Virus record (IMG/VR): IMGVR_UViG_3300003323_000375
Location: 1-42,526 of that record
Strand: one strand, 5' to 3'
Source of the DNA: a virus
DNA: 42,526 bases
In this document: positions 10,634-22,782 of the stretch, one piece after another
Position numbering within the stretch: position 1 is the first letter of the stretch
Layout: each line of letters starts with the position of its first letter
The notes under the pieces: model-generated
What the model saw: only the letters and a program-made list of their open reading frames with translations
Databases searched by the model: none
Told to the model about the DNA's origin: nothing
Position numbers and translations under genes: made by a program

Positions 10634-12580
10634 CTATTCTTTTACGATGTCAACTACTTCACAAGCCCCGGCGGAACAAGCAAGTGTTTGACTTCCTTCA
10701 GTATTATCTTCAACTTCATAATGTGAAAGCAATGACCAATGAATTGTTTTTGGCATCTTAGAAAGCAATTCTTCGTATTCTTCCTTGCTTACTGCTTGGT
10801 ATGGTGCCTGCTTATAAACATGGTCTGTACGCGGAAGGAAGCTAATTCCCGCTACGTCATCCCAATTCTTGTAAACCCAAGCTGCTACCTCAATCCATTC
10901 GTCTTCACCCACTGAAATAGTTACTGAAGGATTGTGCTCAGTCCAGTGGTTCCTATAGACTCTCCAAATTTCGAGATGCTCAAGAGCACTAAGATTTTCC
11001 TGAACAATAGCTCCTTCAGGTGCCTTTGTGGGATAGGAGAATACTGTTGTATCTCCCGGGCGCATTACGCATGGCTCATTTGGAATGCCACTATCCTTGA
11101 GGAATTGAGTAAGTGGATCATTATTTGAATTACGAACTGTACGAATATAGTATTCACTGTGCCATGGATGCATTCCAGAACTAGACTTCACAAGCTGGCT
11201 TACAGTTCCACTTGGCTTAACAGTAGTAATGGCAGCAGATGGATTTATTCCAAGCTCACGTGCATAGATAGCATTTGTGTTTATCGCAAACTCTCTTAAT
11301 TCGTCAAGTGCATCAGCAAGTTTATCAAGACCTTCTGAACCGTTGAAGAACTTATTTCCAAACTGTCCAGTAAGACTAACACCAAGCAATCTTTCCTCTT
11401 CAGCATTTTCACGCCAAGACTTACGAAGATATTTAAAGTTTGTCAAGGTTGATTGGAAAGTACCAAGAATTGTAGCAATCTTAACCTTTTCCTTAATTGT
11501 GTCAACAGTGTCGCTTTCTTCAACAACAACCTCGGTAAGATTACAAAGTCCATTTGGTCTTAGTGCGATCTCGCCACAAGGATTTACTCCCTGTACCTTT
11601 GAAGAATCACGACGACCGGCTGAATCAATATGTTTACGAATAGAGTCGAGATTGAATATTCCTCTTTCACCTGACTTTGATTCAATGAGATTTGACCATT
11701 CCTGCAAGAAGGTCTCTACATCTGGTTTTGACTCGTAAATGGCTGAATTATTTGCTAGAGCACGCTGACCCTGTGCAGTCCACCATTCACCTGACTTTGC
11801 CTTGGCAAGTTTGGTGTCACCTAGATCAGACAAAGAAATCAAGGCTGCTCTACGAACGCCACCTACAACTACAATTTCTGCAATCTTGCAAATAAGGTCG
11901 TGGCATTCCATGGTGGTAAGTTTACGACCTGCCGCGTTCTTAAATGTTCGAATGAAGAATTCGAACACTTCACGAAGTGGCTCTGGACCACTGGCACGAC
12001 CACCAAAAGTTTTTAACCTGGCACCCTTTGGACGAACCTTAGATGTGTCGATATTTGGAATCTGTCCAGAATAGAGCATGGCTACTAGCTCTTTAAGAGC
12101 CTTTGACCAACCAAGCTTTGAATCAGCAACAATAATTGTTGTATCTGTGTCATGGAATGTATCGTCCACAACTGGAAGCTTATTTACGTTTTCCTGAGTA
12201 ACACTGAATCCAAGACCAGTACCATTCATAAGAACATAAAGTGCTTCGTCAAAAGCGCGGGGAGAATCAACGGCAATGAAGCTACAGTTATAGCCTGCTA
12301 GATTCTCTCTTTCCAATGCTGGACCCGCAGTCATAAGCGCGCGCATTGAAGGCATTACTTTGTGGTTTAGAATGGCATCACGGATTTCCTCCGCAAGTGT
12401 ACCTTCAATATTAAAATCAAAGTTCTTTGCAAGGTGGCCCTGCATAAACTCTACATACCTATCTACCGTTTCAGCCCAGGTTTCACGACGGCCCTTTTCT
12501 TCATCCCAACGGGCATAACGTGAAACAGCGATGAAGCTACGGTAGGGATCAATAATCTGACCCCCTTCATCTACTATCAA
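10634..12580 (-). CDS. nrdJ: Adenosylcobalamin-dependent ribonucleotide reductase (class II)
   Basis: A 648-aa class II reductase resembling the monomeric RTPR of Lactobacillus leichmannii. It reduces ribonucleotides to deoxyribonucleotides using a cobalamin-derived radical, so it needs no oxygen and no small subunit. Visible active-site residues are Cys99 (GYNCSF), Cys335 and Glu337 (VNPCGEIAL), Cys346 (GLCNLTE), and the C-terminal shuttle pair Cys635/Cys640 (LACSAGACEVV). Their spacings (335-346, 635-640) equal those of the Lactobacillus enzyme (408-419, 731-736). It is about 90 residues shorter than that 739-aa enzyme. The start is TTG at 12580 with AAGGAG 8 nt upstream. nrdH lies directly upstream as electron donor. 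Confidence 0.95.
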   Translation of the reverse strand: MIVDEGGQIIDPYRSFIAVSRYARWDEEKGRRETWAETVDRYVEFMQGHLAKNFDFNIEGTLAEEIRDAILNHKVMPSMRALMTAGPALERENLAGYNCSFIAVDSPRAFDEALYVLMNGTGLGFSVTQENVNKLPVVDDTFHDTDTTIIVADSKLGWSKALKELVAMLYSGQIPNIDTSKVRPKGARLKTFGGRASGPEPLREVFEFFIRTFKNAAGRKLTTMECHDLICKIAEIVVVGGVRRAALISLSDLGDTKLAKAKSGEWWTAQGQRALANNSAIYESKPDVETFLQEWSNLIESKSGERGIFNLDSIRKHIDSAGRRDSSKVQGVNPCGEIALRPNGLCNLTEVVVEESDTVDTIKEKVKIATILGTFQSTLTNFKYLRKSWRENAEEERLLGVSLTGQFGNKFFNGSEGLDKLADALDELREFAINTNAIYARELGINPSAAITTVKPSGTVSQLVKSSSGMHPWHSEYYIRTVRNSNNDPLTQFLKDSGIPNEPCVMRPGDTTVFSYPTKAPEGAIVQENLSALEHLEIWRVYRNHWTEHNPSVTISVGEDEWIEVAAWVYKNWDDVAGISFLPRTDHVYKQAPYQAVSKEEYEELLSKMPKTIHWSLLSHYEVEDNTEGSQTLACSAGACEVVDIVKE

Positions 12581-19194: not shown

Positions 19195-19533
19195 ATGGTA
19201 AAAGATATACACCTCGATGGATCTGAGATAAAAAACAACATCGAGCTGAAAGAATATCTTGAAAAGCTCCGCTCAGTCTGCTACGAACTTTACATTGAAA
19301 CAATGTGGACAGCAGATATTTTGCAGGGAAGACTTTCAAGAATAAAGGGTGTTACTAATCGAGTAAGAGCGCGCATCGTAGCGGGTACGCTCAAGGCTGT
19401 AGGTGAAGCTTTTAAGCTTGCGGGCAAAAACTCTGCCAAGACTTGGACCGAATTTGAAAAACACTTCGGTGAAGAACTGGCTAAGGCTCCAAGCGCAAAG
19501 CGCGTGCGAAAAGATCCTTTCGAGATTAAGTAA
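19195..19533 (+). CDS. Helical partner of the DNA translocase
   Basis: A 112-aa basic, helical protein (MVKDIHLDGSEIKNNIELKE..., then RIKGVTNRVRARIVAGTLKA and a C-terminus AKRVRKDPFEIK). It is first in the operon, and its stop overlaps the translocase ATG (TAATG), so they are made together. The position and charge recall small accessory proteins next to Streptomyces tra genes, or an adaptor bringing DNA to the translocase. No sequence family was recognised. Confidence 0.7.
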   Translation: MVKDIHLDGSEIKNNIELKEYLEKLRSVCYELYIETMWTADILQGRLSRIKGVTNRVRARIVAGTLKAVGEAFKLAGKNSAKTWTEFEKHFGEELAKAPSAKRVRKDPFEIK

Positions 19534-21368
19534 TGGCCAGTAAGAAAAAGATTCTAGACCAGACCACCAACAACAATACAATGATATTGCTACAGCCATA
19601 TCTAGTTATGTTGTTGGTGTTCTTCTTTGCTGTCCTTTTTGCGATAGTAACCCATTTCTATGACTACCGAATACCAATCATAATTGGTCTTTCGGTGATG
19701 ACTTGCGGATTGGGTGTGTTCACCTGGACAGCTTCTAGATCTAGGAATGACTTTGGCAGACAACACGCTGTATTAAGTATGCTTTCTGCTGGAGGATGGC
19801 TTGTGTCAAGCCTGATATTTGGTCTTTTCACCCCGCCAATCCTCCTTATTTGGTTGATGGGTGGTTTAACATTGGGTTTGAGCTGGAATATTCGTTCAGC
19901 GATAAAGACAAACGAAAGAACTTCTCCAATTGAAAACTTCTTTGAAGAAATCAATATGCCTGGAACCAAATGGCGTGTTACAAAGAAGACTTCAGATGTT
20001 ATTGAAGGTGAAGTTTCACTTAAGCGCGGTTCTGGTACCGTGGATATGCTTCAAAAGGCTAAGGGAAAGCTTGCCAGTTTCTTCGGTGTGCCAGAAAACG
20101 GTATTCGCATTATGCCAAATACCGATAATGCATCAAAGGCAACAATGAAGATTGTCGCCAGAGATATGCTTAAAGAAAAGCGTGAGTATAAGTTCAGTTT
20201 GCCAGAAAGCGTTCTCACTGTAAATGATCCAATGGAAATTGGATGGTACGAAGATGGTAAGCCGGAAAGATTCAGTTTGCACAGTAAAGACCTAGGTGCC
20301 GCACATATGCTTGTGCAAGGTATGAATGGTTCTGGTAAGTCTGAAGCTGCAAAGGTTATCTTCGCTGAGTGTTTCAAGCGTGAAGAAATAGAAATTTGGG
20401 TGATTGACACCACCAAGGGATCACAGACTCTTGGACTATTGACTCCATATCTTGACTGGGTGATTGATGATGAACGTATTGCAGACTTGCTATTCAAGAA
20501 GTTCAAGAAAATCATCAAAGATCGTGCTGATTATTTAGGATCAAAACACTATGCAAAGTGGGAGCCGGGATGCGGCCTAACATTTGTTTATGTACACATT
20601 GAAGAGGCATCAGGTCTTATCGCTAACAACCCAGCATTTATTAAGATGATGGAAACTGCTCGTTCTGTTGGTGTTCAGATTACAGCTTCATTGCAGCGTG
20701 CTAGCTATGTTGCTATTGATACTGCCGCCCGTGCTCAGTTCTCTGCTGTTCTTTGTTTTGGTGTTCAGACAATCGAAGACGCTATGTTTGCCTTGCCGGA
20801 TGAGGTAATAGACGCTGGTGCCAATCCATCTATTTGGAAGAATCGTAAGCAAGGATATAACTATCTAGCACACCCAACAGCAGATGATGAATATTGGATT
20901 ACTCCCGCACGTACTTTCCTGATCTCAAATGAAGAGCTTATTGAGGCCGGAGAGAATAGGGTTGACCACAAACTAGACCCTGTTACAATGAAGGCCGTGG
21001 GGGATCTATATCATGCCACCTTGGATGATGATCCTGACAATGATGAGGAAGAGCTAGAAGAGATCTTCCCTGAGCAGGAGCGAGAAGAATTGGAAGAAGA
21101 ACTAAATAAGGAACTTGTATCTCAGTATGGAGATAATGTCCTTGATTTTGATGTTAAGGAGCCAATGCCACCAGAAGAGGCTAGGCAGGTTCTGGAAGAC
21201 AAATTACAGGATCTTAAGGATTCTGGCGTGCATGAATTTACCGCACCTGAACTTGGTGAGGTATTGGTAGCCACTGGACGTTCACGTGCATGGTTGCGTA
21301 AGATTCTTGAAAAGAAAGTCGCGGATAGCGAGCTAGATAAAGAAGATTTCACCTACCGATTTATGTGA
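19533..21368 (+). CDS. FtsK/SpoIIIE (TraB-like) membrane DNA translocase
   Basis: A 611-aa protein. Residues ~18-125 hold about four membrane segments in two pairs. Residues ~150-230 form a linker. The RecA-like motor has Walker A GMNGSGKSEAAK (~263-274), a Walker B-like FVYVHIEEAS (~350-359), GVQITASLQRASYVAIDTAA, then FGVQTIEDAMFALPD. A long acidic stretch (EEELEEIFPEQEREELEEEL) leads to a C-terminal winged-helix-like end (FTAPELGEVLVATGRSRAWL). This is the layout of FtsK and of TraB, the Streptomyces plasmid protein that moves double-stranded DNA between mycelia after reading 8-bp repeats. A phage could use it for DNA partition, entry, or spread between compartments. A phased repeat array lies 650 bp downstream. 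Confidence 0.88.
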   Translation: MASKKKILDQTTNNNTMILLQPYLVMLLVFFFAVLFAIVTHFYDYRIPIIIGLSVMTCGLGVFTWTASRSRNDFGRQHAVLSMLSAGGWLVSSLIFGLFTPPILLIWLMGGLTLGLSWNIRSAIKTNERTSPIENFFEEINMPGTKWRVTKKTSDVIEGEVSLKRGSGTVDMLQKAKGKLASFFGVPENGIRIMPNTDNASKATMKIVARDMLKEKREYKFSLPESVLTVNDPMEIGWYEDGKPERFSLHSKDLGAAHMLVQGMNGSGKSEAAKVIFAECFKREEIEIWVIDTTKGSQTLGLLTPYLDWVIDDERIADLLFKKFKKIIKDRADYLGSKHYAKWEPGCGLTFVYVHIEEASGLIANNPAFIKMMETARSVGVQITASLQRASYVAIDTAARAQFSAVLCFGVQTIEDAMFALPDEVIDAGANPSIWKNRKQGYNYLAHPTADDEYWITPARTFLISNEELIEAGENRVDHKLDPVTMKAVGDLYHATLDDDPDNDEEELEEIFPEQEREELEEELNKELVSQYGDNVLDFDVKEPMPPEEARQVLEDKLQDLKDSGVHEFTAPELGEVLVATGRSRAWLRKILEKKVADSELDKEDFTYRFM

Positions 21369-21587: not shown

Positions 21588-22027
21588 GTAGAGTTTCTAG
21601 AGTCATTGTGCAATTTGTTAGGGAGCGTCGTGCACAAATTGAAAAGTGGGGAAACCAATCACATCCCGATGGAACAGGCTTACTCGGAGATAAAGAGCGG
21701 GCAGAACATGCTAAAGCAACTTGTCAAGGATTGGCTGCCCACGGTAAAGTCTCCTGGCGAGATATTCTATTTGAAGAAGTTGCAGAAGCGTTCGCGGAAA
21801 AAGACGTCGATGCTTTGCGAATTGAGCTTCGACAAGTTGGAGCAGTAGCAGCGGCCTGGATTGAGGATATCGAAGAACGCATGCTTGAACTAATTGATGA
21901 CAAGGTTTCAGAATGGCATGAGCGTGAAGACATCGATATTCCGCTCCATGAATACCTAGGTATGTCTATCCATGAATACAATAATTGGGTCAGAGATGCT
22001 GTAATTCCAGACAATTATCATCTGTAA
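21584..22027 (+). CDS. MazG-like NTP pyrophosphohydrolase-type protein
   Basis: A 147-aa protein. RRAQIEKWGNQSHPDGTG then ILFEEVAEAFAEKD and ALRIELRQVGAVAAAWIEDI form the all-alpha MazG/phage-type NTP-PPase pattern, where the E-E-x-x-E and later E/D residues bind magnesium. It may hydrolyse unusual or signal nucleotides (for example (p)ppGpp or dNTPs) during infection. The start is taken as TTG at 21584, overlapping the preceding TGA; another TTG lies 21 nt upstream. The C-terminal ~45 residues are an extra acidic/aromatic tail. Its stop falls inside the first TGTAACCCC repeat. Confidence 0.78.
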   Translation: MSRVSRVIVQFVRERRAQIEKWGNQSHPDGTGLLGDKERAEHAKATCQGLAAHGKVSWRDILFEEVAEAFAEKDVDALRIELRQVGAVAAAWIEDIEERMLELIDDKVSEWHEREDIDIPLHEYLGMSIHEYNNWVRDAVIPDNYHL

Positions 22028-22173
22028 CCCCTCTTGTAACCCCTTGATACCCCTGTTACACTAGTCTGTAACAGGGGTATTTTGGCTTGTAACCTAGCCT
22101 GTAACCCCTGTTGTTACCCCTTTGTAACCCTAGAAAAAATATATGTTTTCCAGGAAAAAGAGAGGGGGTTACA
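22023..22173. repeat. Phased TGTAACCCC repeat array
   Basis: Exact TGTAACCCC at 22023, 22035 and 22100. Close variants are TGATACCCC (22045), TGTTACACT (22054), TGTAACAGG (22067), TGTAACCTA (22088), TGTTACCCC (22112) and TGTAACCCT (22123). A perfect inverted copy (GGGGTTACA) lies at 22165-22173 over the -35 box of the next gene. Neighbouring starts are mostly 9-13 bp apart, i.e. about one helical turn, as in iterons or multimeric binding arrays. Confidence 0.78.
22047..22083 (+). terminator. Terminator inside the repeat array
   Basis: ATACCCCTGTTACA (22047-22060) pairs perfectly (14 bp) with TGTAACAGGGGTAT (22067-22080), loop CTAGTC, followed by TTT. It ends the translocase/MazG operon and is itself built from two repeat units in opposite sense. 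Confidence 0.75.
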
Positions 22174-22197
22174 ATGATCTTGAAACGATGTTAGAAT
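22169..22197 (+). promoter_or_regulatory. Promoter overlapping a repeat unit
   Basis: TTACAA (22169-22174), a 17-bp spacer and TAGAAT (22192-22197). The -35 box is the end of the inverted TGTAACCCC copy, so a protein bound to the array should block or steer this promoter. It is followed ~75 nt later by the HNH gene. Confidence 0.6.
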
Positions 22198-22223
22198 CGA
22201 TGAAAGCTGTACGACTGACGCCT

Positions 22224-22272: not shown

Positions 22273-22782
22273 ATGAGCGCGACATACCTAAATGGCGTGG
22301 GACAAGTATTTATGGGTAATAACGGAGACTGGAAAGCAGTCGGATATGTAGATGTAGAATTATATAAATCTGATTACTGGATTTCTGCAAATGGGTCGGT
22401 TTACCACAACGGCGTTAAATTAAAGCCAGTGGTTAATTCACACGGGTATTACTTCTATACCATCTATTTAAAGGATGGAAAGCAGAAGTCAATTCTTCCG
22501 CATATAGAAGTATGGAGAGCTTTTAAAGGCCAATATCCTATTGGTGGGATCAAGCATAAAGATGGTAATAAGCTGAACAACAATGTTGATAACTTGGTGG
22601 CATGTCATCCAGTTGAGGATTATATGAGACATCTCATTAACGGTATTAGCATCACTAAGATTGCTAAGCATTATGGAACATCTAAGAAAGATATTAGTAA
22701 ATACGTAGCCATACGGCACCCTGGCGGTGTGCGAGCTATTCGTAAATTCTATCCTCTTAATAAGAGTCTGGATATTCAATGA
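22273..22782 (+). CDS. HNH homing-type endonuclease with HTH tail
   Basis: A 169-aa protein. YKSDYWISANGSVYHNGVKL is a NUMOD4-like start. The HNH_3 core (ILPHIEVWRAFKGQYPIGGI, then KHKDGNKLNNNVDNLVACHP) is followed by a helix-turn-helix (ISITKIAKHYGTSKKDISKY). This domain order is that of free-standing phage homing endonucleases. The start has GGAGGTG 7 nt upstream. It stands just after the repeat array, which it may have invaded. There is no evidence of an intron. Confidence 0.87.
   Translation: MSATYLNGVGQVFMGNNGDWKAVGYVDVELYKSDYWISANGSVYHNGVKLKPVVNSHGYYFYTIYLKDGKQKSILPHIEVWRAFKGQYPIGGIKHKDGNKLNNNVDNLVACHPVEDYMRHLINGISITKIAKHYGTSKKDISKYVAIRHPGGVRAIRKFYPLNKSLDIQ

Follow-up and report, generated by a model that had tools for sequence, protein, structure and literature searches.

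What is the role of an array of short direct repeats that lies on the 3' side of an FtsK/TraB-like gene in a viral genome? The window, by which we mean the whole stretch of DNA analysed, is one viral record of 42,526 bases. An initial annotation, made from the letters alone, offered several readings of the array: a loading or centromere-like site of the translocase encoded upstream, an iteron origin, or an operator. The motor loading site is the reading supported by the present analysis, and the array very likely serves the phage's own TraB as a clt-like loading site. This reading is favoured because of the homology of the translocase to TraB, the linkage of array and gene in all nine related records, the position shared with plasmid clt regions, one of which has been footprinted, and the covariation of the repeat motif with the recognition helix alpha3 of the translocase. 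The homology, the anatomy, the conserved same-strand linkage, the helical phasing and the covariation are shown, while the winged helix carrying alpha3 is a prediction. No binding or transfer data are available, and both cognate binding and the requirement in cis remain inferred.

The repeat array and the signals around it

The nine forward units of the TGTAACCCC type, three of them exact, start at positions 22023, 22035, 22045 (TGATACCCC), 22054 (TGTTACACT), 22067 (TGTAACAGG), 22088, 22100, 22112 and 22123, with gaps of 12, 10, 9, 13, 21, 12, 12 and 11 bp between successive starts. In the 42.5-kb record TGTAACCC occurs six times against 1.05 expected, a count that none of 100 shuffles reached, and five of the six copies fall inside the array region, as do all four exact copies of TGTAACCCC in the record. 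The density of TGT[AT]AC on one strand is 8 per 120 bp within the array and at most 3 in 200 shuffles. The array is thus real, its forward and inverted units exceeding every shuffle. The coordinates of the array and of the neighbouring features are listed in Table 1.

Table 1. Features of the TraB-array locus in the window
Feature	Position	Strand	Remarks
112-aa protein gene	19195..19533	+	overlaps translocase start (translational coupling); precedes TraB in 9/9 records
TraB-type dsDNA translocase P0001, 611 aa	19533..21368	+	homology to Streptomyces TraB; FtsK-fold motor; predicted C-terminal winged helix
C-terminal winged-helix domain (predicted), residues 547-611	21171..21368	+	AF2 domain model, Foldseek
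Recognition helix alpha3 (predicted), residues 585-597	21285-21323	+	covaries with array motif
clt-like array, nine forward TGTAACCCC-type units	22023..22131	+	about one helical turn apart; exceeds shuffles; orthologous arrays in eight relatives
Intrinsic terminator embedded in array	22047..22084	+	14-bp perfect stem, 6-nt loop, TTTT
Perfect inverted unit	22165..22173	-	overlies -35 box; L005 and L008 arranged likewise with their own motif
Sigma70-like promoter of downstream operon, GTTACA-18-TAGAAT	22168..22197	+	consensus match only
TACGACTG element, conserved 3' of array	22210..22217	+	kept in 7/9 related records
HNH endonuclease gene, first after array	22273..22782	+	conserved as neighbour only within L005/L008 clade

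Most of the anatomy described in the initial annotation held. Nine forward units, three of them exact, and a perfect inverted unit were confirmed, as was a spacing of mostly 9-13 bp, except for the one gap of 21 bp. The claim that the inverted unit lies on the -35 box of the next promoter also held as a consensus match, GTTACA being located under the unit and 18 bp from TAGAAT. A genome-wide count of the repeats had been proposed there as a check of clustering, and the repeats proved not to be evenly spread. What had been overlooked is a terminator hairpin within the array (22047-22080, followed by TTTT; -25.9 kcal/mol, z -5), and from this hairpin and its T-run the upstream operon is predicted to end inside the array. 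The units at 22045-22075 sit within the hairpin, and their sequence may therefore be partly owed to it. Comparable hairpins with T-runs were recognised by eye in the arrays of L008 and L011.

Other conserved elements were observed downstream of the array. The element TACGACTGC(G) lies past the array, ahead of the following gene, in the window, L005, L006, L008, L009, L010 and L011; in this tally of seven out of nine for TACGACTG / TACGACTGC(G), the element is absent in L035 and the contig of L007 stops before the site. A palindrome, GGTCTGACC, follows the last array unit in L006, L008, L010 and L011. Neither the TACGACTGC(G) element nor the GGTCTGACC palindrome was found in plasmid clt regions. 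The possibility that TACGACTG is a repeated promoter element was rejected, a single exact copy being present in the window and ACGACTG being missing from the plasmid clt regions. Elsewhere in the window, between 29000 and 38000, the GC content rises from about 0.41 to 0.50, with many small ORFs and few recognisable families, and this stretch may be a recent acquisition.

The translocase and its linkage to the array

By tblastn, P0001 matched TraB, which acts as dsDNA translocase in the conjugative plasmids of Streptomyces, with E values of 2e-55 to 7e-71, at a coverage of up to 92% and through the last residue. P0001 is thus a TraB homologue; that it transfers dsDNA between cells is an inference. 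The few matches in phage libraries were to a PHROG family of unknown function and, distantly, to an FtsK family, and a protein-profile search of PDB sequences with the translocase and its tail gave nothing meaningful. The AlphaFold model of P0001 matches the FtsK motor 2iut (Foldseek E 1.3e-14) and the TcpA coupling protein, the Walker A sequence GMNGSGKS is invariant in the motor, and four hydrophobic helices, read from the model alone, lie between residues 15 and 123 and may form an N-terminal membrane anchor. Folded alone by AF2, the tail of P0001 shows the order H-E-H-H-E-E (pLDDT 80), and Foldseek returned winged helices as its top matches, with no E value below 0.02. The C-terminal domain is thus predicted by the model to be a winged helix with alpha3, and its reading of DNA is inferred. 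The initial annotation had placed an FtsK/TraB-like gene with a winged-helix-like C-terminus about 650 bp upstream of the array; the gene, now recognised as a TraB homologue, is about 653-655 bp away, and the winged helix is supported by the AF2 domain model and Foldseek.

In profile comparisons, the 112-aa protein encoded ahead of P0001 is related to the product of a 111-aa gene just 5' of traB on plasmid pRL1 (E 3e-11) and to that of a gene before traB on an Amycolatopsis plasmid (E 6e-6). No Pfam family, even at loose thresholds, and no recognisable DNA-binding family was assigned to it.

A scan of 2.9 million viral contigs yielded eight relatives, making nine records with the window. The relatives were retrieved by TraB similarity, their TraB proteins being 45-63% identical to that of the window, and the records other than G004, the relative behind L008, are probably fragments. 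In all nine, an array of (T/C)GT(C/T/A)ACC units is located 3' of traB on the traB coding strand, so the same array does accompany the gene in relatives, as the initial annotation had proposed to check; in every case no other stretch of the entire record is as dense in such units (5-9 in the array, at most 4 elsewhere). The distance from the traB stop to the array ranges from 2 to 1301 bp: 2-31 bp in five records, 238 bp in L010, 1136 bp in L008 and 1301 bp in L005. In the latter three and in the window, other genes (240-1300 bp) separate traB from the array. In L010 a free-standing HNH-like gene (11855-12136) lies between the two, the array being 240 bp off and undisrupted. The gene after the array varies among the relatives (HNH, RNase H-like, 94-aa or MRRF-type). 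The array stays while the downstream gene changes, and it is therefore tied to traB and not to the following gene.

The 51 gaps within the nine arrays group at 9-13, 21-23, 32-33 and 41-43 bp, showing a best period of 10.4-10.5 bp (p 0.0002 versus jittered gaps). A scan of the viral contigs for the pattern GTCTGACCT...ACGACTGCG gave 11 matches, with arrays in just three, all of them known relatives that have the array next to traB; the remaining matches are due to chance. As negative controls, the cultured phages Gilgamesh and Baka carry FtsK-like genes without such an array nearby.

Plasmid clt regions and rival readings of the array

The best characterised counterpart of the array is the clt of plasmid pWTY27, a region of 175 bp consisting of the last 16 bp of the translocase gene and the next 159 bp (PMC3583192). 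The pWTY27 TraA protein, annotated as TraB in the sequence record of the plasmid, footprints all four TGACACC repeats of this clt, and deletions in clt lower transfer 10- to 1000-fold (PMC3583192). Repeats of 8 bp are bound by TraB via helix alpha3 (PMC3583192, PMC4170104). The DNA following traB was compared in 22 plasmids. In 13 of them a 7-mer is repeated at least four times directly after the gene, a copy number equalled in none of 200 shuffles, the repeat types being TGACACC, CCGCACA or GCGCACC. Marginal arrays were present in seven others, including the footprint-verified pWTY27 (4/200 shuffles), and no array was found near traB in the remaining two, pFP3 and a Streptomyces globisporus plasmid. 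On pRL1 and an Amycolatopsis plasmid (L061 and L065), Pycsar effector and NUDIX genes are located shortly behind traB and the array, which hints at a possible spot for defence cargo on these two actinobacterial plasmids.

The phage motif extends the series of plasmid clt repeats: it is TGTCACC, which takes the form TGTAACC in the window and that of TGTTAC in L008. Between alpha3 and the motif, the following pairs were observed: RSRAWLHK with TGTCACC, RSRAWLRK with TGTAACC, LSRAWLYK with TGTTAC, xSRPW(V/L) with TGACACC, and RDRSWVS with GCACACC. Over phages and plasmids together, alpha3 and the motif covary with a partial Mantel r of 0.44 (p 0.0002) when the distance between motors is controlled. 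The motif register was set by hand in this test, the sequences are related, and the permutations of a Mantel test are liberal. In Thermobispora and Nonomuraea, TGACACC is accompanied by a different alpha3.

According to the loading-site model, each TGTAACCC unit would be bound by alpha3 of one TraB C-terminal domain, and units one or two turns apart would bring several domains onto one DNA face, where the aligned domains would nucleate the assembly of a TraB hexamer that encircles the DNA at the membrane. The shared orientation of the units would give the TraB ring its direction, and the motor would then drive double-stranded phage DNA through membrane or septum. In the window's own clade, TraB on the inverted unit would additionally prevent transcription from the next operon's promoter, and the embedded terminator together with the promoter under the inverted unit leaves room for a secondary regulatory role in this one clade.

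The main rival is an operator array, similar to stoperators, through which a phage regulator would control the downstream operon, the presence of traB being coincidental. In its favour, three records (the window, L005, L008) have the inverted unit on top of a -35 box, with a sequence that shifts with the array, and terminator and promoter are interleaved with the repeats. However, no promoter with its -35 in an inverted unit was found in the other six relatives, except for a weak 8/12 match in L009; traB is conserved while the downstream gene is not; and plasmids carry a TraB-bound clt with the same motif family at the same position. Stoperators, moreover, are single asymmetric repressor sites dispersed over the genome, a distribution not met by units in one cluster. 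We consider this reading unlikely, and the operator option of the initial annotation survives solely as a conceivable secondary role in one clade.

The two other options, both raised by the initial annotation, have no initiator, ParA or ParB in their support. For an iteron origin, an initiator would bind the repeats and melt the AT-rich segment 22131-22160, with TACGACTG as the start or nick site; the direct repeats and the AT-rich spacer fit this scheme, as does the downstream element that seven of the nine records conserve. Against it, G004 encodes PolIII alpha, DnaB and DnaG, no iteron initiator was recognised among the scanned proteins, no Rep family was found among the scanned neighbours of the array, which follows traB and not a rep gene, and array-bearing plasmids keep their replication iterons elsewhere, the repAB iteron of pWTY27 being located apart from clt (PMC3583192). 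An iteron origin is thus very improbable. No more can be said for a parS-like partition centromere that would serve an extrachromosomal prophage, with the 112-aa protein as its binder and TraB as the motor. In agreement with it, phased repeats lie by an ATP motor, and a small helical protein is conserved throughout the nine records, but integrase, recombinase and ParA were not found in these records, including the 132-kb G004, no DNA-binding family was recognised in the 112-aa protein, and the replication genes are of lytic type. We regard this option, too, as highly unlikely.

Several points can be raised against the loading site itself. The relatives were chosen by TraB similarity, and another binder, either the 112-aa protein or an unseen regulator, is therefore conceivable; an operator would look like the inverted unit over the promoter; array and traB are separated in the window, L005, L008 and L010, and the plasmid survey includes two cases without an array and seven marginal ones; and the covariation rests on a liberal test with a hand-set register and has the Thermobispora/Nonomuraea exception.

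The phage lineage and known systems

In its major capsid protein the lineage shares 60-62% identity with Streptomyces phages, Faust (Stanwilliamsviridae, 130 kb) among them, and its genes follow the same order as theirs, ThyX-glycosyltransferase-RNR-endolysin-portal-protease-capsid. The G004 sequence (L054-L060) is 132,127 bases long and probably complete, because both ends carry the same 127 bases; in addition to the replication proteins already named it encodes RecA, and genes for RNA ligase, TROVE/Ro60, SPFH and an HSP90-like ATPase were also noted. Neither tyrosine integrase nor serine recombinase nor ParA (AAA_31) was found in the nine records, the probably complete G004 included. The lineage is Stanwilliamsviridae-like and apparently lytic. 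By tblastn, full-length TraB was undetected in known phages including cultured Stanwilliamsviridae, which gave no match or weak motor-only matches; the DNA of the window region gave no match to known phages, and no host copy of the translocase was found in scanning bacterial genomes. In a tree that combined the nine phage TraB proteins with 22 from plasmids, those of the phages clustered together with a support of 100/100, consistent with one acquisition by the lineage.

TraB has been described as the sole plasmid protein required for dsDNA conjugation in Streptomyces (PMC4170104). Its presence with a covarying site in lytic-looking phages implies that these viruses kept a plasmid DNA-transfer machine, possibly for virion-free spread, and why an apparently lytic virus would hold such a machine is an open puzzle. 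As the most plausible benefit we infer that replicated genomes could move without virions through septa or from one joined cell to another; holding genomes at the membrane, or aiding entry or segregation, may be considered as alternatives. A bolder and rather unlikely possibility is that this lytic-type lineage of large actinophages spreads its infection by pumping naked dsDNA genomes via septa or into neighbour cells, with a conjugation pump and a cis-acting transfer site of its own and without virions or receptor. The set of motifs and alpha3 sequences from phages and plasmids amounts to a testable code for the specificity of an orphan winged-helix domain.

TraB and clt are already known as a pair, also on the phage-plasmid-like pCQ4. 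What is new is a TraB-clt-like pair in a Stanwilliamsviridae-like lineage without detected integrase, recombinase or ParA; the literature searched contained no description of such a pair in a tailed-phage lineage of lytic type. The claim of the initial annotation that a phage-borne pair would be new thus held only in part, as pCQ4 (NC_019307 36000-84833; L085, also L073), a phage-plasmid bearing the TraB-clt pair, encodes TraB followed by an ACACCCC array, and capsid, head and tail genes. It differs from the window lineage in having integrase and ParB and in its other gene content. Both pCQ4 and pZL12, the latter a described plasmid-phage (PMC4487206) whose transfer needs its tra gene (PMC3583192), resemble the window lineage in carrying TraB or a tra gene alongside phage structural genes. 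The likeness of the actinophages Gilgamesh and Baka is confined to an FtsK motor in a tailed phage. With FtsK and KOPS the phage pair shares the motor fold and, by inference, a winged helix reading short asymmetric sites and hexamer loading, but KOPS are scattered and polarised along the chromosome, whereas the phage motif is clustered locally. A KOPS-like genome-wide distribution was rejected, the motif forming one cluster with few copies elsewhere and lacking the frequency and strand polarity of KOPS.

The closest relatives remain the TraB-clt systems of pWTY27, pJV1, pSN22, pSVH1 and pRL1. In contrast to these, the phage version sits in large tailed phages of lytic appearance, its repeats are TGTCACC/TGTAACC rather than TGACACC or CCGCACA, no traA or spd genes were recognised beside traB, intervening genes displace the array in some phages, and the array has an embedded terminator and an inverted unit over a promoter. 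In common with them, it has a homologous translocase with a putative membrane N-terminus, an FtsK motor and a predicted winged helix, same-strand repeats of 7-9 bp on the 3' side of the translocase gene, a CACC-ending core, a spacing of about 10-13 bp and, on pRL1, a homologous small gene 5' of traB.
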